This document shows, one piece after another, positions 16,463 through 54,454 of a stretch of 64,000 bases of DNA; the stretch's first letter is position 1; the number at the start of each line of letters is the position of its first letter. A model generated the notes under the pieces. That model had not been told where the DNA came from. It worked only from the letters and a program-made list of their open reading frames with translations, and did not search any database. The DNA lies in assembly GCF_034479635.1 (NCBI RefSeq), contig NZ_CP140153.1, positions 937,501 through 1,001,500 of the forward strand, in the 5' to 3' direction. The stretch is from Guyparkeria halophila (GTDB lineage: Bacteria > Pseudomonadota > Gammaproteobacteria > Halothiobacillales > Halothiobacillaceae). The position numbers were made by a program, and so were the translations under genes.

Positions 16463-16730
16463 GGGAAGCTCTGCACGAATGCCATATCGCTCTGCGCGCC
16501 TTGCGCCGGGCAGATGCAAGGCGACCGTCCGCCGCGGAAGGGTGGTTCCCTTTCCAAGGACGGCAACGCCGCAGATGTCCGGCGCAAGGCGCGCCCTGCG
16601 GGGCTTGGCGAGTCGCCCGTGCCCCGCGTTGCGACGTCTTGACGTGACCACCGGCACGCCGGCGACATCGCGCCTTGATCACGAACGACTCGCCAAGCCA
16701 GAGTGGCATGGCATTCGTGCAGAGCTTCCC
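16463..16730. repeat. MITE-like intergenic element, copy A (268 bp)
   Basis: The ends form an inverted repeat starting GGGAAGCTCTGCACGAATGC on each strand. Inside is the core CAGATGCAAGGCG ... GCAACGCCGCAGATG that is shared with copies B and C. A second internal hairpin (GGCTTGGCGAGTCG and its complement) flanks a loop of about 70 bases. No transposase is encoded. It lies between mtaD and argD, with its right end 108 bases before the argD start. Confidence 0.8.
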
Positions 16731-16838
16731 TGGGGCTCAAAAACGCAATGGATTCAATGCGCTCGTCGTTCCGGGGAGCGCTTTTTTGGTTTTGTGTCGC
16801 CCGGAAATCCCGGGCGAAATCGGTTTTCGAGGAACGCT

Positions 16839-27171: not shown

Positions 27172-27439
27172 GGGAACCTCTGCTCGAATCGATGGTGTCT
27201 CTGGCTCGCGGGTTTGTTCGCAATCAAGGCGCCGGCTCGAAGACGGGCTCATGGCCCGTCGAGAGACGGCAACGCCGAGTGTGGGCAAACCCGCGAGCCC
27301 CGTCCGGGCGGGCCGCCAAGGGACCATCTGCGGCGTTGCGGCGCTTGCGAATGGCGACGGCCATTCACTGCGCACCGCGCCTTGCATCTGGACCCTTGGT
27401 GGTCCCGCAGAGACACTATCGAGTCGTGCAGAGGTTCCC
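27172..27439. repeat. MITE-like intergenic element, copy B (268 bp)
   Basis: It is the same length as copy A and in the opposite orientation. Both ends begin GGGAACCTCTGC on their own strand and continue through ATCGATGGTGTCTCTG-like sequence. The core CAGATGCAAGGCGCGG is on the minus strand. An inner hairpin (GGCTCGCGGGTTTG and its complement) encloses a loop of about 70 bases. It separates the ATP-grasp gene from the papain-like gene, and its left end supplies the ribosome-binding GAGG of the latter, 2 bases from the GTG context. Confidence 0.8.
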
Positions 27440-27472
27440 TCGGGCTCCTCGTGCCCGGGGTATGGCGCGGGA

Positions 27473-29453: not shown

Positions 29454-29599
29454 GCGCATCCGGCGCGCGCTTCATATCGGCGTACCGGTCCGAGATCAGA
29501 AAATTCGATTCCCCGGATATTGATTTCGTCGAGATCCCGGGTAAGGATGTCAGGTGAGGCTAATCGTTTGCCGGCTTGGTTTCTTGCCGGCCCCATCGA

Positions 29600-29794
29600 G
29601 GGAAACGCTGCACGATTCGATGACGTCTCTGCGGGACCTCCAAGGGTCCAGATGCAAGGCGCGGTCCGCCGTGAAGGGCCGTCGCCCTTCACGAGGGCAG
29701 CAACGCTGCGGATGGGCCCTTGGAGGCGCGCCCGGACGGGGCTTGCGGGTTTGCCCGCAAGCCAGAGATGTCATCGAATCGTGCAGGGTTTCCC
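29600..29794. repeat. MITE-like intergenic element, copy C (195 bp, shortened loop)
   Basis: The terminal inverted repeats are about 31 bp with two mismatches (GGGAAACGCTGCACGATTCG left; GGGAAACCCTGCACGATTCG on the opposite strand at the right). The core CAGATGCAAGGCGCGG is followed by GCAACGCTGCGGATG. It lacks most of the 70-base loop of copies A and B. It fills most of the 356-base gap between the DUF4174 and DsrE-like genes and ends one base before the AAGGAGG ribosome site of the DsrE-like gene. Confidence 0.85.
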
Positions 29795-34034: not shown

Positions 34035-34229
34035 GCGCGCACTCGGTCTGACCAGTCCTGCCGATTGACGTCCTGAGGGCCTGCCCTCAACCCCTGCGTT
34101 TTCCTTGCCGACTGGCGTGCGTTCCCTCCCCGGGAGCGTGTGACGGGAAACGCCACGCCATTCGAGACGCCATTTTTGTCATGGCCTCCATGCGTTGAGC
34201 GTTCTCGTCCCCCAAGGAAAACTGTTTCT

Positions 34230-35597
34230 ATGTTGTTTTCAGAACTGGGCCTCCGCCCGGAACTCCAGCGCGCCATCGAAGAGCGCGGCTACACCACCCC
34301 GACCCCGATCCAGGCCAAGGCCATCCCGACCGTTCTCTCCGGCGGTGACCTGCTCGCTGCGGCCCAGACCGGTACCGGCAAGACCGCCGGCTTTACCTTG
34401 CCTTTGCTCGAGCGCCTGATGGAAACCCACCCGGAAGGTGGCCACAAGGGTGGCAAGCGTCCGATTCGCGCGCTGATCCTCACCCCGACGCGCGAGCTGG
34501 CCGCCCAGGTCGAGCAGAGCGTGCTCGATTACGGCCACCACCTGCCGTTGAAATCGATGGTCATGTTCGGCGGTGTGGGCATCAACCCGCAGATCGACAA
34601 GCTCAAGAAGGGCGTCGACATCCTGGTCGCCACGCCGGGCCGCCTGCTCGACCACCAGAACCAGCGCACCGTGGACCTCTCGCAGGTCGAGATCCTGGTG
34701 CTGGACGAAGCCGACCGCATGCTCGACATGGGCTTCATCCACGACATCAAGAAGATCCTCAAGATCGTGCCGGAGCAGCGCCAGAACCTGCTGTTCTCGG
34801 CCACCTTCTCCGACGAGATCCGCACCCTGGCCGGCAAGCTGCTGGACAACCCGGCGGAAATTTCCGTCACGCCGCGCAACACCACCGTCGAGGCGGTCAG
34901 CCAGTCGGTCTACGAAGTCGATCGTGACAAGAAGCGCGAACTGCTCGCCGAGCTGTTGATCGACCAGGACTGGCAGCAGGTGCTGGTGTTCACCCGCACC
35001 AAGCACGGCGCCAACCGCCTGGCCGAGTACCTCTCCAAGCGTGACATCCCGGCGATGGCCATCCACGGCAACAAGAGCCAGACGGCGCGCACCAAGGCGC
35101 TCGAATCGTTCAAGAACGGCAGCATCCGCGTCCTGGTGGCCACCGACATCGCCGCCCGCGGCATCGACATCGCCCAGTTGCCCTACGTGGTCAACTTCGA
35201 GTTGCCGAACGTCGCCGAGGACTACGTCCACCGCATCGGCCGCACCGGTCGGGCGGGCGAGTCCGGCGAGGCGATCTCGCTGGTCTGCATCGACGAATTC
35301 AAGCTGCTGGCCGGCATCGAGCGACTGACCAAGCAGAAGTTCACCCGCCACGTCGTGCCCGGATTCGAGCCGGACCCGAACGCCAAGCCCGAACCGATCC
35401 CGAACGGTCGCAACAACGCCGGCGGCGGTCGCCGTAGTGGCGGTGGTCGTCCCGGTGGCGGTGGCGGTCGCGGTGGGCCCGGCGGTGGCCAGGGACGCGG
35501 CCAGGGACGTGGCCCCGGTGGCGGCGGCCGTGGCCCGGGCGGTCGTCCGGGTGGCCGTGGTGGTCGCGGCGGTGGTGGCCGTAGCGGCAACCGTTAA
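34230..35597 (+). CDS. DEAD-box ATP-dependent RNA helicase, RhlE type
   Basis: The protein has 455 residues. All motifs are present: Q motif ([12 protein letters not shown]), [30 protein letters not shown] and [11 protein letters not shown] Gly/Arg-rich tail follows from about residue 395 (RGG-like repeats) and probably adds RNA affinity. It acts in RNA unwinding, ribosome assembly or mRNA decay. The ATG at 34230 is preceded by AAGGAAA; an upstream in-frame start at 34140 lies in the leader and is less likely. A strong terminator follows. Confidence 0.95.
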
Positions 35598-35647
35598 TCC
35601 GCGTTTCCAGTCCTCGGCCAAGGTCGAGGAACGTTGATGTACCAAAG

Positions 35648-35676
35648 CGCCCGGCTGATCAGCCGGGCGTTTTTTT
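35648..35676 (+). terminator. Rho-independent terminator after the helicase gene
   Basis: The perfect stem CGCCCGGCTGATCAGCCGGGCG is followed by seven T. It is nearly identical to the terminator-like stem at 36833-36858, part of a tandem duplication. Confidence 0.95.
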
Positions 35677-35725
35677 GTGCTCGTGTCCGTTTGGATAGCC
35701 GCTTATCGAATAACAGGCAAAGTAA

Positions 35726-35755
35726 TTGGTATTGCCGCTCGGGTCGGCTACCGTC
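35726..35755 (+). promoter_or_regulatory. Candidate promoter of DsrE-like gene 2, conserved in its paralogue
   Basis: TTGGTA and TACCGT are separated by 17 bases, and the 15-base block GGGTCGGCTACCGTC is repeated at the same distance (46 bases) before the start of the paralogue at 36991. Conservation between the two leaders, amid diverged sequence, supports function. Confidence 0.5.
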
Positions 35756-35800
35756 GAAAGGGAATAAACAACAATCCCTCAGGGATTCGAGGAGGAAGGA

Positions 35801-36280
35801 ATGATCAAGCGCGCCTTGCTGTTTGCCTGCCTGCTGCCGGCCATGGCCATTGCTACCGCCACGGCCAGCGATAATCGCCCCTGGGGCACGGCCGAGCTGA
35901 CCGAGAAGGATTACCAGCCCGACAAGGTCGTCTACGACGTGGCGGCCAAGGATGCCGAGGCGCTCAACAGCATCATCGGCCGGGTCAGTCACCTGAACAA
36001 CGAGTACGCCGGCGACGTGTTCGACGCGCATATCGTGGTGGTGTTGCACGGCGACGAGATCCCGCTGTTCACCACGGAGAAGTACGAGGAGAACAGGGAG
36101 TTGATGGAGCGCGCCCAGTCGCTGACCGTCGCCGGTAACATCGAATACCGCATGTGCGCGGCCGCCGCGGCATTGCATGACGTTGAACCCGAGGACGTGC
36201 ACGGGTTCGTCAACGTGGTGCCCATGGCCGATGCCGAGATCATCGAGTTGCAGCACGAAGGCTATGCCTACATGAAGTAA
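35801..36280 (+). CDS. Secreted DsrE-like protein (2)
   Basis: The 159-residue precursor has a signal peptide ending near ATATA (about residue 20). The mature part carries DNRPWG, KVVYDVAAKDAEALNSIIGRV, IVVVLHGDEIPLF and a Cys in IEYRMCAAAAAL, ending VVPMADAEIIELQHEGYAYMK. It is a close paralogue of the gene at 36991, with the same leader, so the pair arose by tandem duplication. A role in periplasmic sulfur handling is only a family-level guess. AGGAGGAAGGA precedes the ATG. Confidence 0.8.
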   Translation: MIKRALLFACLLPAMAIATATASDNRPWGTAELTEKDYQPDKVVYDVAAKDAEALNSIIGRVSHLNNEYAGDVFDAHIVVVLHGDEIPLFTTEKYEENRELMERAQSLTVAGNIEYRMCAAAAALHDVEPEDVHGFVNVVPMADAEIIELQHEGYAYMK

Positions 36281-36780: not shown

Positions 36781-36832
36781 TTCCGATTCCGTTTACGCTG
36801 TCTTGAAAGGTATTTCCCCCATTCCGAACAAG

Positions 36833-36858
36833 CGCCCGGCTGATTAGCCGGGCGTTTT
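36833..36858 (+). terminator. Rho-independent terminator upstream of DsrE-like gene 3
   Basis: The stem CGCCCGGCTGATTAGCCGGGCG is followed by TTTT. It differs by one base from the stem after the helicase gene, so it appears to have been duplicated together with the DsrE leader. Confidence 0.85.
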
Positions 36859-36914
36859 GCGTTTGGCGAACGCGCTTGGTTGTGAACGCCTTTTCGACTA
36901 CTAGGCAACGTACA

Positions 36915-36945
36915 TTGGTGCCGATCCCCGGGGTCGGCTACCGTC
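36915..36945 (+). promoter_or_regulatory. Candidate promoter of DsrE-like gene 3
   Basis: TTGGTG and TACCGT are separated by 18 bases. The block GGGTCGGCTACCGTC matches that before DsrE-like gene 2, at the same 46-base distance from the start codon. Confidence 0.5.
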
Positions 36946-36990
36946 AAAGCGGGGAATGCAACCGTCCCGCGGGTGTTCAAGGAGAAAACG

Positions 36991-37458
36991 ATGATCCATC
37001 GAGCCTTGCTGTTTGTCTGCCTGCTGCCCATCGTGGCGATGGCCAGCGACAACCGCCCCTGGGGTGCGGCCGAGCTGATCGATAAGAGCTACCAGCCCGA
37101 AAAGGTCGTCTACAACGGGGCGGCGAGGGATGCCGAGGCGTTCGACCGCATCCTCGATCGGGTCAGTTACCTCAACAACGAATACGACGGTGACGTGTTC
37201 GACGCGCATATCGTGGTTATCCTGCACGGCCCGGAAATTCCGTTGTTCACCGCCGAGAAGTACGACGAGAACAGGGATCTGATGGAACGGGCACAGTCGT
37301 TGACCGTCGCCGGCAATATCGAGTACCGCCTCTGTGCGGTCGCGGCCGCGCTGCGTGACGTCAAACCCGAGGACGTGCACGGGTTCGTCAAGGTGGTGCC
37401 CATGGCCGACGCCGAGATCATCGAGTTGCAGCACAAGGGTTACGCCTACATGAAATGA
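36991..37458 (+). CDS. Secreted DsrE-like protein (3)
   Basis: The 155-residue precursor has a short signal peptide ending near VAMA. It closely matches the product of the gene at 35801: DNRPWGAAEL, RVSYLNNEYDGDVFDAHIVV, IPLFTAEKYDENR, IEYRLCAVAAAL, VVPMADAEIIELQ. The single Cys is kept. The ATG at 36991 has AAGGAG just upstream; an in-frame start six codons earlier is less likely. Two secreted copies plus gene 29810 suggest dosage or specialised binding of a periplasmic sulfur compound, which is unproven. Confidence 0.8.
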   Translation: MIHRALLFVCLLPIVAMASDNRPWGAAELIDKSYQPEKVVYNGAARDAEAFDRILDRVSYLNNEYDGDVFDAHIVVILHGPEIPLFTAEKYDENRDLMERAQSLTVAGNIEYRLCAVAAALRDVKPEDVHGFVKVVPMADAEIIELQHKGYAYMK

Positions 37459-37620: not shown

Positions 37621-37878
37621 ATGAAGGTCGAGCTCGTGACGAACCTGAAGCGACAGGCCACGCGTATCCTGGCCGACCTGCACGAGTCCCGGGAACCGGT
37701 TTTGATCACCGAGCATGGTCGTCCGTCGGCGTACCTGGTGGATGTGCAGGACTACGACTTCATGCAGCGACGGCTGGCACTGCTTGAAGGACTGGCCCGA
37801 GGAGAGCGGGCGGCCCTTGAAGGACGGGTTGTCCGCCAGGAACAGGCCAAGGAGCGGCTGGGGAAGTGGTTGACGTAG
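37621..37878 (+). CDS. Phd/YefM-family antitoxin
   Basis: The protein has 85 residues. The N-terminal DNA-binding part reads LVTNLKRQATRILADLHESREPVLITEHGRPSAYLVDVQDY, characteristic of Phd/YefM. The C-terminal tail, rich in Arg and Glu, would wrap the toxin. GGGGAGG precedes the ATG. It overlaps the toxin gene by 13 bases. Confidence 0.9.
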   Translation: MKVELVTNLKRQATRILADLHESREPVLITEHGRPSAYLVDVQDYDFMQRRLALLEGLARGERAALEGRVVRQEQAKERLGKWLT

Positions 37879-38177
37879 TCTGGACCGAACCGGCCCTGAA
37901 TCAACTTGACGCAATCGCCGAATACATCGCCCTCGATAATCCACACGCCGCATCTCGCCTGGTTCGGCAGGTATTCGATGCGGTCGAAAGGCTTGAGTCG
38001 TTCCCGGAGTCGGGGCGACACCCGCCGGAATTGCCCGATTCCGTGTACCGCGAGGTCGTGCTTTCCCCGTGCCGGATCTTCTATCGTGTCGAGCAGGCGC
38101 GTGTTCTCATCCTGCATGTGATGAGGCAGGAACGAGACCTCCGGGCCTACCTGCTTGCCCAGGATGATCGTTCGTAG
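37866..38177 (+). CDS. RelE/ParE-family toxin
   Basis: The protein has 103 residues with a GTG start inside the antitoxin gene. VVWTEPALNQLDAIAEYIALDNPHAASRLVRQVFDAVERLESFPESGRHPPEL is the ParE/RelE signature, followed by the strand end VYREVVLSPCRIFYRVEQARVLILHVMRQERDL. ParE-type toxins poison gyrase, whereas RelE cleaves mRNA; the sequence fits ParE better. The two genes are coupled by overlap, and the first extra cbbQ 3' copy starts 41 bases downstream. Confidence 0.88.
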   Translation: MVDVVWTEPALNQLDAIAEYIALDNPHAASRLVRQVFDAVERLESFPESGRHPPELPDSVYREVVLSPCRIFYRVEQARVLILHVMRQERDLRAYLLAQDDRS

Positions 38178-38218
38178 CCGCGACGCCCCGGTGGTCGATG
38201 CTCGGGTCAGACAGCAAA

Positions 38219-38244
38219 ACGCCCAGCCGATTGGCTGGGCGTTT
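38219..38244. terminator. Bidirectional terminator, copy 1 of the cbbQ-end repeat
   Basis: ACGCCCAGCC-GATT-GGCTGGGCGT is flanked by A- and T-rich ends. The same stem occurs at 38971 and after the true cbbQ at 42477. Here it would serve the toxin gene. Confidence 0.8.
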
Positions 38245-38267
38245 CTCGTTCGGGCGGGCGTTTCTCC

Positions 38268-38358
38268 TTACGAGAAGAACGCGCTGACCGCGGAGTCGAG
38301 GGTGTCGCGCATGTCCGGGTCGTCGGTGATCGGGCGGATCAGGGTCATGGAGCAGGCA
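38268..38358 (-). pseudogene. cbbQ 3'-end fragment, copy 1 (about 30 codons)
   Basis: The minus strand reads [20 protein letters not shown] and continues to the CbbQ C-terminus with the stop at 38268. It matches the true cbbQ C-terminus with one substitution (I for V). Similarity starts upstream at about 38212, including the terminator, and stops abruptly at 38358. No start or Walker motifs are present. The remaining gap to 38582 holds nothing recognisable. Confidence 0.85.
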
Positions 38359-38936: not shown

Positions 38937-38970
38937 GGATGTGGCATAGCGATATCGGGCATAAAGCAAA

Positions 38971-38995
38971 ACGCCCAGCCGATTGGCTGGGCGTT
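38971..38995. terminator. Bidirectional terminator, copy 2 of the cbbQ-end repeat
   Basis: ACGCCCAGCC-GATT-GGCTGGGCGT is the same stem as copy 1 and nearly the same as that after the real cbbQ. It follows the hypothetical gene at 38583 by about 35 bases. Confidence 0.8.
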
Positions 38996-39020
38996 TGTCG
39001 TTCCGGCGGACGTTTCCTCG

Positions 39021-39212
39021 TTACGAGAAGAACGCGCTGACGGCCGAGTCGAGGGTGCCGCGCATGTCCGGGTCGTCGGTGATCGGACGGACCAGGGTCA
39101 TGGAGCAGGCGGCGCGCGGGTCGACGCCCTTGGCGATCAGGCTGCCGGCGTAGACCAGCAGGCGGGTGGAGACGCCCTCGTCGAGGCCGTGGCCCTTGCG
39201 GTTGGCGAACTC
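39021..39212 (-). pseudogene. cbbQ 3'-end fragment, copy 2 (about 63 codons)
   Basis: The minus strand reads [20 protein letters not shown] and continues to the CbbQ C-terminus with the stop at 39021. Over the last 57 residues 52 match the true CbbQ (5 substitutions), while many codons differ silently. It therefore looks like the remains of a separate cbbQ paralogue that was once under selection, not a recent copy. The 5' two thirds are gone. The rest of the gap to 39356 shows no gene. Confidence 0.8.
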
Positions 39213-39356
39213 CCCCGGGCGTCTTGCGCAGTAGCCTCGTCAAGATTTCAGGTGGGTCTTGATACACTCCCGGCGCTGTCACCATTTTTCCTTGGTGCGG
39301 CATATGAGCCGAGTTCCAGGACGGAACGACGGATTACTGCTTTCAAGGAGTGATAC

Positions 39357-39644
39357 ATGAAGTGCCCCCACTGCGACGGGTCGTTCAGTCTGTTTTCCAG
39401 AGAGATGAACCGGTTTGGAAGGGAGGCGAAACGCTGCCCTTACTGCCAAGGTTCGGTGCGTCTGTTCGTGAGTCTCAAGGTGGCCGCGCTTCTGTTTGTT
39501 CCTGCCGTCGCGCTGGCCATCGTCCTGGAACCCGTCATGGCGGGTTTCGGTATTGGTGGCTCGGTCACGACCGGGATGGTGTGCGGGTTGCTCGCTTGGC
39601 TCTCGCTGAGGCTCAAACCGGCACCGCTTCGAACCGATGGGTGA
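39357..39644 (+). CDS. Small zinc-ribbon membrane protein
   Basis: The protein has 95 residues. Two CxxC pairs (CPHC and CPYC) form a probable zinc ribbon in residues 3-32, followed by two membrane helices (about 40-60 and 65-85). Function is unknown. It overlaps the start of the flavin monooxygenase gene by 8 bases, suggesting co-expression. Confidence 0.6.
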   Translation: MKCPHCDGSFSLFSREMNRFGREAKRCPYCQGSVRLFVSLKVAALLFVPAVALAIVLEPVMAGFGIGGSVTTGMVCGLLAWLSLRLKPAPLRTDG

Positions 39645-40752
39645 CCCGCATGGGCCCTCGGGGCGGGCAATAAAAGCACCTCGAATACTCGTGGTCGGTG
39701 CTGGCGCCAGTGGTCTCGCGTTCGCGCTGGAGTGTGCGAGTCGGGGCACGCACGTCCGAGTGATCGAACGACGCTCTTGCAGGTCGTCGATCCAGAAGGC
39801 AACGGGTGTGGCAGCCGGTGTCTGGAGGCGGCTGTCGAAGTTTGGGGTGTCACCAACATCCGTATCCGCTGCGATCCCGATGAGGAACTTCGCCTTCCAC
39901 GACGATGGGAGGTTGGTCGCCAACGTTCCGGTACCGGAAATCGACGGCGAGCCACCGGCTCACCTCTATCCGCAGGGCGAGCTTGAACGGTATCTGGAAG
40001 AGGCCCTGTCCTCGCGGGGAGTGGAAGTCGAATACGACACGGCGTTCATTTCCTACGAAGCGAGCGGAACGTCGGTGCGGGTCGGGATTCGGGATGAGGG
40101 CCAAGAAGTCGAACGTACGGAGGAGTTCGACTGGGTGGTGGGTGCCGATGGTGCGCACAGTGCAGTGCGCCAGGCGGCCGGGATGCCGTTCGTCGGTCGG
40201 GACTACCCGGAAACCTGGTCCGTCGCCGAGATCTCCACAAGGAAGTGGCCCTCCGACGCGCAGGCGCAGCTCTTCCTTCGATCGGACGGCGTCGGACTGT
40301 TCCTGTCCCAGCCGACCAGCGGCGTGGTTCAGGGCATTCTCAACGCTCCGAACGTGTCGAAGGCGCTTCACGCTCATTTCCCGGATGCGGAGCTCCGCTA
40401 CGAGCGCGATTTTCGTGTGACGCTCAGGCGTGTCCGATCGCCGAGAACGGGCCGAGTGTGGCTGATCGGCGATGCGGCACATGTGCAGTCGCCGGTGGGA
40501 GGTCAGGGTCTCAATCTCGCCATCTGGGACGGAATCACCCTGGCTGAGGGGTTGCTGGCCGGCGACCTGACCGTTGAACGAGTGCTGGCGAGGCGCGCCC
40601 GGACCGTGCTCCTCTTTACCGACTTCGACTATCGAATGTTGGCGACGAAGAGCCGGCTGGTTCGCTCCGTCAGAAACCGGTACTGGGCATATGCCGCGAA
40701 ACACCCGGCACTGGCCCGGTGGTTCTTCAAGCTCATATCCGGCGGCTGGTGA
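39637..40752 (+). CDS. FAD-dependent monooxygenase, PHBH/UbiH fold
   Basis: The protein has 371 residues. FAD motifs are ILVVGAGASGLAFALECA, VVGADGAHSAVRQAAG (DG motif) and LIGDAAHVQSPVGGQGLNLAIWDG (GD motif). All three are intact, so an aromatic or quinone-like substrate hydroxylase is likely. The substrate is unknown, but it is not near ubiquinone genes. It lies in the accessory stretch between cbbQ-end repeats and has a C-terminal helical tail instead of a thioredoxin-like domain. Confidence 0.85.
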   Translation: MGDPHGPSGRAIKAPRILVVGAGASGLAFALECASRGTHVRVIERRSCRSSIQKATGVAAGVWRRLSKFGVSPTSVSAAIPMRNFAFHDDGRLVANVPVPEIDGEPPAHLYPQGELERYLEEALSSRGVEVEYDTAFISYEASGTSVRVGIRDEGQEVERTEEFDWVVGADGAHSAVRQAAGMPFVGRDYPETWSVAEISTRKWPSDAQAQLFLRSDGVGLFLSQPTSGVVQGILNAPNVSKALHAHFPDAELRYERDFRVTLRRVRSPRTGRVWLIGDAAHVQSPVGGQGLNLAIWDGITLAEGLLAGDLTVERVLARRARTVLLFTDFDYRMLATKSRLVRSVRNRYWAYAAKHPALARWFFKLISGGW

Positions 40753-40827
40753 TCAGGGCATTGAAGCCGCCGGTGGGGAGAAGTGGGCATGACGGTATGT
40801 CCGATCGGTTCATGTGATAACGGGTGA

Positions 40828-41295
40828 ATGATGCGAAAGATGATCCAGATACTGCTGAGCGTCGTGGGGGCTGCTGCCGGAATCGTGAGTATGGTGTCCC
40901 TCTACTTCTGGCTGGTGTTTGCCAATGGCGTGGTTACGGGAGATGGTGGCATGGTGTCGTTCACGCAGACTGTCGCGCCTCACATGTACGAAAGTCTTTC
41001 GTCTAGTCAGAAGCTTCTTATCCATGCGCGCGACTATTTCATCGTCATCGGTGGGGCAATCGGATGGTTGTCCTTCTTCGCGCTGTTCGCCATGACGGCG
41101 AGGCCCTGGAATCGCCTGCCACGGGTAGTCATAGGCGGGTGTGTCGTGGGAGTGGTTGCCGCAGCCGTCACGGCCATGCCGATTCATGCCATGAGTATGG
41201 TCTTCGCAATGCCTCCCGTGCTGGCAGTCAGCGCATTGCTTCTTCGAGCATATCTGGCAGTACCAGATGCCGAACGTGGGAGAATTCTGTTGTGA
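40828..41295 (+). CDS. Hypothetical membrane protein
   Basis: The protein has 155 residues and about four membrane helices (roughly 7-30, 70-92, 98-120 and 122-142), including YFIVIGGAIGWLSFFALFAM. It is not recognised. Base composition looks lower in GC than the flanking core genes, in keeping with an acquired segment. Confidence 0.5.
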   Translation: MMRKMIQILLSVVGAAAGIVSMVSLYFWLVFANGVVTGDGGMVSFTQTVAPHMYESLSSSQKLLIHARDYFIVIGGAIGWLSFFALFAMTARPWNRLPRVVIGGCVVGVVAAAVTAMPIHAMSMVFAMPPVLAVSALLLRAYLAVPDAERGRILL

Positions 41296-41534
41296 TCGTT
41301 TGACGGGCATGGGTTCCGAACCGATAGGCGCTTGAACACGGCTTGATTGGAGCCTGGGAATACATTCTTCAGGTGAAATTCCGATCGCAAACCGCCCAGG
41401 GGCGGTTTGCCCAGAGTAGGGACGGACCACCCAACTCGGGTGGTATTTGTTTCAGGATTTACGCCAGCGACAAGGAATCAGTCACTCGGTTGAGGCCGGA
41501 TTGCCTCGATCGTCACAACCGTCAGGAGGACGAG

Positions 41535-41891
41535 ATGAAGAAGAGACGTATTGCGCTTACCGCCGTATCGCTGGCGTTCATTGCCGGCTGCGCCACGACG
41601 AGTTTCGAGCCGCCGAATTGGGTTTATGAGGCCTGGTCGAAGGATGGGGTGTCGGAAACGCAGGTGAAGGCCGAGATGCGTGATTGCGGCTACGACGACG
41701 TCAGCTGGGCCAATGACCTGTCGAAAGAGGAAGCCGCGCGAGCAGAGGCCTGCATGAAGGCGAAGGGTTTCGAACTGGACCTTTCCACCTATCGCCCGCA
41801 TAACTGCTACGGCAACGCGCCGTATTTCTGCAAGCGGCTCTGGGGCGGGCAGGCGCCGCAGGTCGTGGAGGTGAAGCCCTCCGCCGAGTGA
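41535..41891 (+). CDS. Small putative lipoprotein
   Basis: The 118-residue precursor has a signal with lipobox IAGC at about residues 16-19. The mature part is Cys-containing (MRDCGYDDVSWA, ACMKAKGFELDL, NCYGNAPYFCKRLWGG), which suggests disulfides. The ATG at 41535 is preceded by AGGAGG; the longer in-frame extension upstream has no signal and is rejected. No known family is recognised. Confidence 0.65.
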   Translation: MKKRRIALTAVSLAFIAGCATTSFEPPNWVYEAWSKDGVSETQVKAEMRDCGYDDVSWANDLSKEEAARAEACMKAKGFELDLSTYRPHNCYGNAPYFCKRLWGGQAPQVVEVKPSAE

Positions 41892-42026
41892 TCACCGATG
41901 CGACAAAGGGTTGCGATTGCGTTGATCGCTTACCCTTCGTTAATCCGTCTGTCTCTCGTCAGCAGTCAAACGCCAAGACGCAAGAAGCGTATGTCTTTCA
42001 TTCATGTCACAGGGAGTGACTGATCA

Positions 42027-42368
42027 ATGGCTTTTTTTTCTACACTTCGGCGGACCTATCGCACGTCCCTGCTGTCGTCGCTTGTCACTCTTCCGTTTTT
42101 CGTCATCCTTTTGTTAAAGGCGATCGCCCCGTATTCGCCAGCGGGTGTTGCGGGCTGGCTGATCATCGTTCTTGGCATCATCGGTTTTGAGGTGATGACA
42201 ATGGCAATGATGCTTTGGGTGAAGGACACGCCACCCCGTGAAGCCACTCCACGCTGGACACTGATCGCCAAGATCATTGGTTGGGCGGTCCCAGGGGTCA
42301 TCATCGTGACAATTGGGCTGATGAACTTGCTGGATTACCTGAAAGGCACGGTTTTCGTCCAAGGCTAA
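42027..42368 (+). CDS. Hypothetical membrane protein
   Basis: The protein has 113 residues and three predicted helices (about 15-33, 40-65 and 80-103). The ribosome site AGGGAGTGA lies before the ATG. It is not recognised. It is the last gene before the terminator shared with the true cbbQ end, and AT-rich stretches near its start contrast with neighbours. Confidence 0.5.
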   Translation: MAFFSTLRRTYRTSLLSSLVTLPFFVILLLKAIAPYSPAGVAGWLIIVLGIIGFEVMTMAMMLWVKDTPPREATPRWTLIAKIIGWAVPGVIIVTIGLMNLLDYLKGTVFVQG

Positions 42369-42476
42369 GAGCTGAGGGGGACCAGCTGTGTGATCGAGGT
42401 TGTCGCGATGGCGGCGTGCCTAGTAAATGCCAGCCCCTTTACCGAGAATTGGCGAGAATTGGGGGCTCAAAGCAAA

Positions 42477-42502
42477 ACGCCCAGCCAAATGGCTGGGCGT
42501 TT
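42477..42502. terminator. Bidirectional terminator at the end of the carboxysome/DAB operon
   Basis: ACGCCCAGCC-AAAT-GGCTGGGCGT is flanked by A4 on one side and T3 on the other. On the minus strand it lies about 20 bases after the cbbQ stop and would end the long cluster. Two further copies of this stem lie at 38219 and 38971. Confidence 0.85.
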
Positions 42503-42525
42503 GTCCTTCCGGCGGGCGTTTCTCC

Positions 42526-43371
42526 TTACGAGAAGAACGCGCTGACCGCGGAGTCGAGGGTGTCGCGCATGTCCGGGTCGTCGGTGATCGGACGGACCAG
42601 GGTCATGGAGCAGGCATCGCGCGGGTCGACCCCCTTGTGGATCAGCTGGCCTGCGTAGACGAGCAGACGGGTCGAGATGCCTTCGTCGAGGCCGTGGCCC
42701 TTGAGGTTGCGCGCGCGCTGGGCGATCTCGACCAGCTTGCCGGCGGTGTCGCGATCGACGCCGGTCTCGTGGGCGAGGATCTCGGTCTCGGTCTCCGGGT
42801 CCGGGTAGTCGAAGTCGAGCGCGCCGAAACGCTGCTTGGTCGACTGCTTCAGATCCTTCATCAGGTTCTGGTAGCCCGGGTTGTAGGAGATGACGATCTG
42901 GAAGTCGGGGTGGGCCTCGACCAGCTCGCCCTTCTTCTCCAGCGGCAGGACGCGACGGTGGTCGGTCAGCGGGTGGATAACGACCGTGGTGTCCTGGCGT
43001 GCCTCGACGATCTCGTCGAGGTAGCAGATCGCGCCCATGCGGGCGGCCGTGGTCAGCGGGCCGTCCTGCCAGCGGGTGCCGTCCTTGTCCAGCAGGTAGC
43101 GGCCGACCAGGTCGGAGGCGGTCATGTCCTCGTTACAGGCCACGCTGATCAGCGGGCGCTGCAGTTTCCAGGCCATGTACTCGACGAATCGGGTCTTGCC
43201 CGAGCCGGTCGGGCCCTTGAGCATCATCGGCATGCGGGCCTTGTAGGCGGCCTCGTAGAGGTTGGCCTCGTCGTGGACCGTGCGGTAGTAGGGCTCGGTC
43301 TGGATGCGGTATTCGTCGGCGTTCGCGTTGCTGTCGCTATTGCCGTTCTGGGGTGTCTGATCAAACAGCAT
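42526..43371 (-). CDS. cbbQ: Rubisco activase AAA+ ATPase CbbQ
   Basis: The 281-residue MoxR-type AAA+ ATPase works with CbbO to remove inhibitors from Rubisco. Walker A is GPTGSGKT (53-60) and Walker B ICYLDE (115-120). The sensor region is [11 protein letters not shown] and the C-terminus [15 protein letters not shown]. It is the last gene of the leftward cluster and is separated from cbbO by the dab genes. Its 3' end and terminator recur twice downstream. Confidence 0.95.
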
Positions 43372-54080: not shown

Positions 54081-54157
54081 CTGCAAAAGAATCTGGGTGG
54101 CAGACAGGGCCGTGCCACGGGGACACGACCACAGGAGCCTGCTCAAATCACGCGGAC

Positions 54158-54454
54158 TTAGGCGTCCGGTGCTTTCGGCAGAATGTTCTCTACCTCGGAG
54201 TGGACGCGCGCGATGATGTGCGCAGCGACCAGGCCGTCACCAACGCGCTCACACGCATCGGCGCCAGCGCGAACGGCAGCGTTGACCGCGCCGGTCTCAC
54301 CACGGACCAGAACGGTCACGTAACCACCGCCGACGAACTGACGACCAACCAGGCGAACCTCGGCAGCCTTGGTCATGGCGTCAGCCGCTTCGATTGCCGG
54401 CACCAGGCCGCGCGTTTCAATCATTCCCAGTGCGATACCGGATACATCAGCCAT
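54158..54454 (-). CDS. csoS1A: Carboxysome shell hexamer protein CsoS1A
   Basis: The protein has 98 residues and one BMC domain, starting [19 protein letters not shown] and ending NILPKAPDA. It differs from the csoS1C product only in the last residues. The ATG at 54454 matches the csoS1C start; a start five codons upstream is less likely. Hexamers tile the shell facets and pass bicarbonate and RuBP. Confidence 0.97.

Follow-up and report, generated by a model that had tools for sequence, protein, structure and literature searches.

A truncated cbbQ end from another Guyparkeria lineage in the rhlE-cbbQ interval of Guyparkeria halophila, probably displaced by DNA insertion

The rhlE-cbbQ interval of the window

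The window, a stretch of 64,000 nucleotides of Guyparkeria halophila DNA, belongs to a genome of 2.45 Mb that was assembled as one contig (completeness 100, contamination 0.01). This genome is referred to below as G000, and its relatives by further G numbers. In the window an rhlE-type DEAD-box helicase gene (34140-35597, plus strand; Pfam DEAD and Helicase_C) and the 3′ end of cbbQ face each other. The resident cbbQ with its terminator occupies 42463-43371 on the minus strand (gene 42526-43371). It matches Pfam AAA_5 and CbbQ_C, gives no match above cut-off against NCBIfam, and is of the type called clade A in the tree described below. We call it carboxysome-linked because of a gene for the carboxysome shell protein CsoS1 further upstream, at 54157-54454.

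On the helicase side, the rhlE terminator is followed by a gene for a DsrE-like protein (35645-36280 with the terminator, gene 35801-36280, plus strand; Pfam DsrE). Over 411 nt this gene is 90.5% identical to its counterpart in G001 and 91.0% to that in G003. Comparison of the window with itself revealed a second rhlE-type terminator (match at 36830-36858), again followed by a DsrE-like gene (36830-37458, gene 36991-37458, plus strand), which is 95.4% identical to the G007 allele, 91.0% to the G002 allele and 83.9% to the first gene. The presence of two DsrE allele groups in one interval is a sign that sequences have been stacked on the rhlE side, too. Pfam matches identified the next two genes as a Phd/YefM antitoxin gene and a ParE toxin gene (37621-38177, plus strand).

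Convergent with this pair lies the first of two truncated copies of the cbbQ end. Copy 1 (38205-38358, minus strand) consists of the cbbQ terminator and the last 90 nt of cbbQ, and is of the type of its own lineage: its coding part (38268-38357) is identical to the resident gene at 88 of 90 positions, as the sequence-only reading of this DNA had noticed. The corresponding values are 83-86/90 for the residents of G001, G002, G005, G006, G007 and G010, and 79/90 for that of G003.

Copy 2 (38957-39204, minus strand) comprises the cbbQ terminator, with its hairpin at 38969-38996, and the last 60 codons of cbbQ with the TAA stop codon (39021-39203), all of the type called clade B below. There is no ATG ahead of the first residues, ACSM, and the list of open reading frames holds no entry of at least 60 amino acids in this frame. 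Copy 2 and its terminator (38957-39204) match the resident end (42463-42709) with 89.5% identity over 248 columns (E 9e-90). The DNA match stops at 39204, eight bases short of the limit at 39212 that had been given to the copy before. Only a part of the CbbQ_C domain is covered, and the fragment corresponds neither to a toxin tip nor to an immunity module of the cdi or rhs type. Convergent with copy 2 is ORF38583 (38583-38936, plus strand), which encodes a small protein without a Pfam match.

The segment that separates copy 2 from the resident gene (39205-42462) was read as inserted cargo. It contains ORFs for a cysteine-rich protein (39357-39644) and a FAD-binding, monooxygenase-type protein (39637-40752; Pfam FAD_binding_3), as well as three small ORFs (40828-41295, 41535-41891 and 42027-42368). 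Outside G000 this cargo has only two partial matches in the genus, in G007 and G010, and no donor with the cargo next to cbbQ was found there.

An Rfam scan of the window gave no match. The exact pattern of the cbbQ terminator is present in five of the 11 genus genomes and absent from the other six, and all eight places where it occurs are ends of this cbbQ or of its fragments. A dispersed terminator element was rejected as a candidate because the exact hairpin is confined to these places.

Gene-end fragments across the genus

The interval was compared in 10 of the 11 genus genomes, G004 (64% complete, no cbbQ match) being left out. In all 10 the rhlE-type helicase gene, on the left, converges with a cbbQ end at a spacing of 834 to 12,162 bp. 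The contents between them vary, although some families (DUF2141, DsrE) recur. Seven cbbQ 3′-end fragments were found in five of the 10 genomes: two each in G000 and G008, and one each in G006, G007 and G009. Matches to the terminator alone, 27-39 nt long, were excluded from this count; G001, for instance, has a bare terminator remnant of 38 nt. All seven fragments have the orientation of the resident gene. Their 5′ limits lie 184 nt (copy 2), 91 nt (copy 1), 165 nt (G006), 171 and 102 nt (G008), 55 nt (G009) and 229 nt (G007) before the gene end; the G007 fragment has a coding match of 107 nt and a decayed 3′ part. Fragments of the rhlE 3′ end occur in two of the 10 genomes, G002 and G007. Additional candidates in G007 (start of contig C22) and G010 (end of contig C241) were discarded as resident ends split by contig breaks, with identical overlaps of 141 and 87 nt, respectively.

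In G008 the right flank of the interval is a different cbbQ, which belongs to a cbbL-S-Q cluster, and the carboxysomal cbbQ is represented by fragments alone. This genome (L041 5321-18255; 87% complete) has two carboxysomal-type fragments, but a carboxysomal cbbQ itself was not found in it, which may reflect replacement of an operon.

A protein search detected no cbbQ 3′-end fragments elsewhere in the 11 genus genomes; having missed the decayed fragment of G009, it may have overlooked others. Control stretches of the same genome, 240 kb in all, gave nine self-matches. Two of these, in L092, are one dispersed-repeat pair, one in L089 lies inside an ORF, three more (L092, L098) are inverted matches of a sequence to itself, and L094 has the remaining three, at 70-73% identity. 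No gene-end fragment was recognised among the six outside the L094 group.

Elsewhere in the window there is a dispersed repeat of about 194 bp (29597-29790, 27280-27442 and 16463-16733). It is bounded by inverted repeats of about 35 bp and looks MITE-like. With the query included and 40 of 55 candidates scored, it has at least 49 matches in the genome, at least 27 of them over 90 bp. As for the interval itself, toxin-antitoxin type genes recur in it: besides the Phd/ParE pair of the window, BrnT-like proteins, with scores below the Pfam cut-off, are encoded in G003 (L036 6725-7015) and G010 (L045 8148-8414).

ORF38583 turned out to be informative about the former context of copy 2. Among 56 other genomes searched, homologues were found in G005 and G008 only (three of 57 genomes in all), with 68-71% identity to ORF38583. 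In all three genomes the ORF faces a cbbQ 3′ end and lies inside the rhlE-cbbQ interval. The G008 homologue sits between the two cbbQ fragments. The G005 homologue is directed towards the intact cbbQ; a match of 638 columns at 81.7% identity runs across the ORF, the terminator and the cbbQ end. Since the order cbbQ-terminator-ORF38583 is intact in G005, copy 2 and ORF38583 represent the old order, severed from the gene: a truncated 3′ copy, downstream of the gene and in the same orientation, with its former neighbour still attached. The terminator left behind is probably still used by the convergent ORF38583, and this use may be the reason why it persists.

The repeats span the 3′ end of a gene and its terminator, with cargo between them. 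A gene 3′ end with its terminator is a known kind of integration target, and the repeats could be taken for attachment-site duplications left by an island that brings its own integrase and inserts at the 3′ end of cbbQ. Against such an island, no integrase, transposase or recombinase family was found among 29 selected interval proteins (nine from the window and 20 from relatives, a selection of the ORFs of nine genomes, with none from G005). The seven fragments, with 5′ limits ranging from 55 to 229 nt, do not have the fixed-length common core that attachment sites would share, and the interval contains duplicated rhlE ends as well. We consider this explanation improbable.

Affiliation of copy 2

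The 183 nt of the coding part of copy 2 were compared with the corresponding ends of the resident cbbQ genes. The closest is that of G010, with 180 identical positions, followed by G005 and G006 (173 each), G002 and G007 (168 each), G001 (167), the resident of its own genome (165) and G003 (163). Identity was 160/180 to G009 and 155/180 to G008. Three form II-type cbbQ genes matched at 125/179, 129/180 and 132/179 positions.

The tree of cbbQ 3′ sequences grouped copy 2 with G005, G006, G010 and the G006 fragment (support 88/90), and the resident gene with G001, G002, G003 and G007 (84/82); the signal consists of 183 nt and the support is moderate. When the decayed G006 fragment was omitted, support for copy 2 in the former group fell to 64/90. 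After this first tree we named clade A (G001, G002, G003, G007 and the own resident) and clade B (G005, G006, G010). Copy 2 has clade B states at codons 11, 21 and 31. G008 and G009 have I, Q and A at these codons, which makes V11 and S/N21 appear to be derived states of clade B.

The gyrB tree separates the same two clades. It unites G005, G006 and G010 with support 98/98 and G000, G001, G002 and G007 with 99/99, and G003 joins the latter group (86/88); gyrB of G000 and G010 are 88.3% identical. The rpoB tree did not resolve. The resident cbbQ thus agrees with the gyrB tree and copy 2 does not. Copy 2 is an allele of the same locus, that is, an orthologous cbbQ end, from another Guyparkeria lineage, clade B; it is unlike the allele now present and has its source among the relatives.

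An old tandem duplicate of the own cbbQ end that diverged later would have the same locus, orientation and terminator, as copy 2 has. However, a pairing of the fragment with the resident gene was rejected by the AU test (p 0.0066), the derived clade B states are shared by copy 2, and G010, G005 and G006 are all nearer to it than the resident is. We give little credence to such a duplicate. The same test disposes of a recent duplicate of the resident, a possibility that the sequence-only reading had set against its own. Grouping of copy 2 with clade A was also rejected (p 0.0135).

In the sequence-only reading, copy 2 looked like what is left of a separate cbbQ paralogue, for example one that accompanies form II Rubisco. 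Form II-type paralogues do occur in the genus, in G002, G007 and G008. Rubisco neighbours were inspected for two of them: the cbbQ genes of L035 (G002) and L046 (G008) adjoin Rubisco large-subunit genes whose best NCBIfam match, above cut-off, is NF010002/PRK13475, a model that we take to represent form II Rubisco; L047 was left out. With these two cbbQ genes copy 2 shares 125/179 and 132/179 positions, as opposed to 180/183 with the orthologous resident of G010, and it does not group with them. In the tree of cbbQ 3′ sequences with form II-type genes included, which had been suggested as the check, copy 2 joined G005, G006 and G010 and not the paralogues. An AU test did not reject the split that places copy 2 with the form II types against the rest (p 0.129). 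In the constrained tree, though, copy 2 remained at a distance of 0.017 from G010 and of 0.77-0.83 from the form II types; only the attachment of the long branch had moved, and we therefore regard this p value as an outgroup effect. A second form I-type cbbQ group (G008, G010b, G013) was rejected as partner of copy 2 (p 0.0117), and both the terminator and the neighbour ORF of copy 2 belong to the orthologous locus. A paralogue origin is very improbable.

Other elements of that reading fared better, so that it was partly supported as a whole. The count of five changes to the resident CbbQ over 57 residues holds: five of the last 58 residues (3-60 of the fragment) and six of all 60 are changed. 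The many silent differences that were mentioned are present, in eight additional codons, but they are moderate in extent (dS 0.24, dN 0.068, ratio about 0.29). Between the residents of G000 and G001 the values are dS 0.36 and dN 0.015, with a ratio of about 0.04. Long divergence under selection at the protein level applies to the time between the clades: the constraint seen in copy 2 evidently dates to the divergence of the two Guyparkeria clades, before displacement. It is not visible in the comparison of copy 2 with G010, which comprises as few as three changes, one silent and two replacements, both at positions invariant among all eight residents listed; since displacement copy 2 shows no sign of constraint in this comparison. 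The supposition that a different cbbQ sequence had formerly been present here and had recombined was borne out, the sequence being an allele of another Guyparkeria lineage.

An assembly or binning error that put foreign cbbQ ends here is hardly credible: several relatives are fragmented and the contigs of G007 and G010 break at the cbbQ-end repeat, but the window genome is the single contig described above and the single-contig genome G006 has the same architecture.

Proposed origin and related systems

We consider it likely that copy 2 is an orthologous cbbQ end from the other lineage, displaced at a recombination hotspot. Most likely an insertion of DNA beside cbbQ pushed the old tail aside. 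From the identity of the alleles, their order and orientation, their recurrence in the genus and the intact junction of G005, we infer the following order of events, entry route and type of crossover. The starting chromosome would have had the order cbbQ (B type)-terminator-ORF38583, as G005 still has. The incoming DNA would have carried the cargo (39205-42462), a cbbQ terminator and a clade A cbbQ end. It would have been taken in through homologous recombination within cbbQ or upstream of it, and its other end would have been linked to a point within the old 3′ end of the gene. This would leave a complete cbbQ that has gained a new 3′ end, then the cargo, and finally the old end, stranded beside its old neighbour. 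ORF38583 has no match in G010, the genome nearest to copy 2, and its identity to the two homologues is only 68-71%; copy 2 and ORF38583 need not, therefore, share one recent donor.

Copy 1 may stem from an earlier round of the same kind. Being farthest from cbbQ and yet most similar to the resident, it counts against a simple order of displacement, and calls for either an A-B-A history or a separate event. Its closeness to the present resident suggests the former, with replacement from A to B and then from B to A, though a separate later event may have produced it. In general terms, repeated insertions would be anchored by homology in the flanking gene, each giving it a new 3′ end and stranding the old one. 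The machinery is likely to be RecA recombination of imported DNA, for which an integrase is unnecessary. The DNA might arrive circularised and integrate by a single crossover, or arrive linear and have one of its ends joined illegitimately. Uptake of DNA in the genus is possible as judged from gene content: a ComEC homologue is present in 11 of 11 genus genomes, 10 of them over cut-off. This is weak evidence, since 12 of the 14 control genomes, E. coli included, match too.

A more far-reaching scheme, which we think rather unlikely, would make the interval an integrase-free capture array: each insertion would duplicate a gene end with its terminator, and these duplicates would then serve as homology handles. 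As part of the same scheme, units of cargo, terminator and gene end would be excised, circularised and re-integrated across Guyparkeria species; they would move like the attC cassettes of integrons, but by RecA alone. If the scheme were true, a readable sequence of past donors would be left behind.

Whatever the merits of the capture array, the outline of the displacement proposed here is already known from single-crossover duplications, homology-facilitated illegitimate recombination (HFIR), displaced cdi and rhs ends and minimal mobile elements. Minimal mobile elements of Neisseria carry different cargo between two conserved flanking genes. The rhlE-cbbQ interval resembles them in having conserved flanks with different contents, and no mobility genes among the proteins tested. 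It differs in that the flanks leave truncated copies of their ends, the comparison here being of one genome per species.

In the part of the E. coli study drawn on here (PMC3240628), one-sided insertions at gene ends gave a PCR product of the duplicated anchor end in 56 of 60 clones, the duplicated ends measured 109-950 bp in 14 sequenced clones, and the duplications were ascribed to a single crossover of a shortened circular molecule. As in these single-crossover and HFIR events, the insert in G. halophila lies between an intact gene end and a truncated duplicate; the duplicates are 109-950 bp long there and the coding ends of the seven cbbQ fragments 55 to 229 nt here. Classical HFIR, according to the same study, usually results in deletions rather than duplications (PMC3240628), which counts against the HFIR route here. 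The E. coli events, moreover, are laboratory plasmid events, whereas those at cbbQ are natural and repeated and involve alleles of two clades, with no donor of the cargo found in the genus.

At the cdi loci of Acinetobacter, 'orphan' gene ends are displaced stepwise, as stated in the portion of that report used here (PMC6336857). There, as at cbbQ, incoming DNA anchored in the upstream gene displaces 3′ ends and leaves a string of remnants, and on similarly partial sources the likeness extends to rhs and T6SS loci. The displaced ends of cdi and rhs loci, as far as these sources go, encode toxin tips with immunity; unlike them, the cbbQ ends show no obvious new function, and their cargo is of an unrelated kind.

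What appears to be new is the rhlE-cbbQ site, with alleles of two clades stacked in it. No earlier report of this locus was among the literature matches listed, and in the available text of the Guyparkeria pangenome paper (PMC9032823) cbbQ, genomic island, competence and horizontal gene transfer do not occur. What had been supposed to be a lost Rubisco-activase paralogue documents exchange among lineages within a single genus, on the border of a gene cluster linked to the carboxysome. The stack hints at the order in which DNA was inserted and at the clades that donated it, a trace that clean homologous replacement would not leave. In annotations of this group, small tails of cbbQ or rhlE should not be counted as paralogues.

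One further fragment was seen outside the genus. In G019, a member of another genus, a piece resembling a cbbQ 3′ end (L048 1548-1655) is 54% identical over 35 residues and form II-like by eye. The contig has no other cbbQ match, and other genera of the family may undergo displacement of this kind as well.
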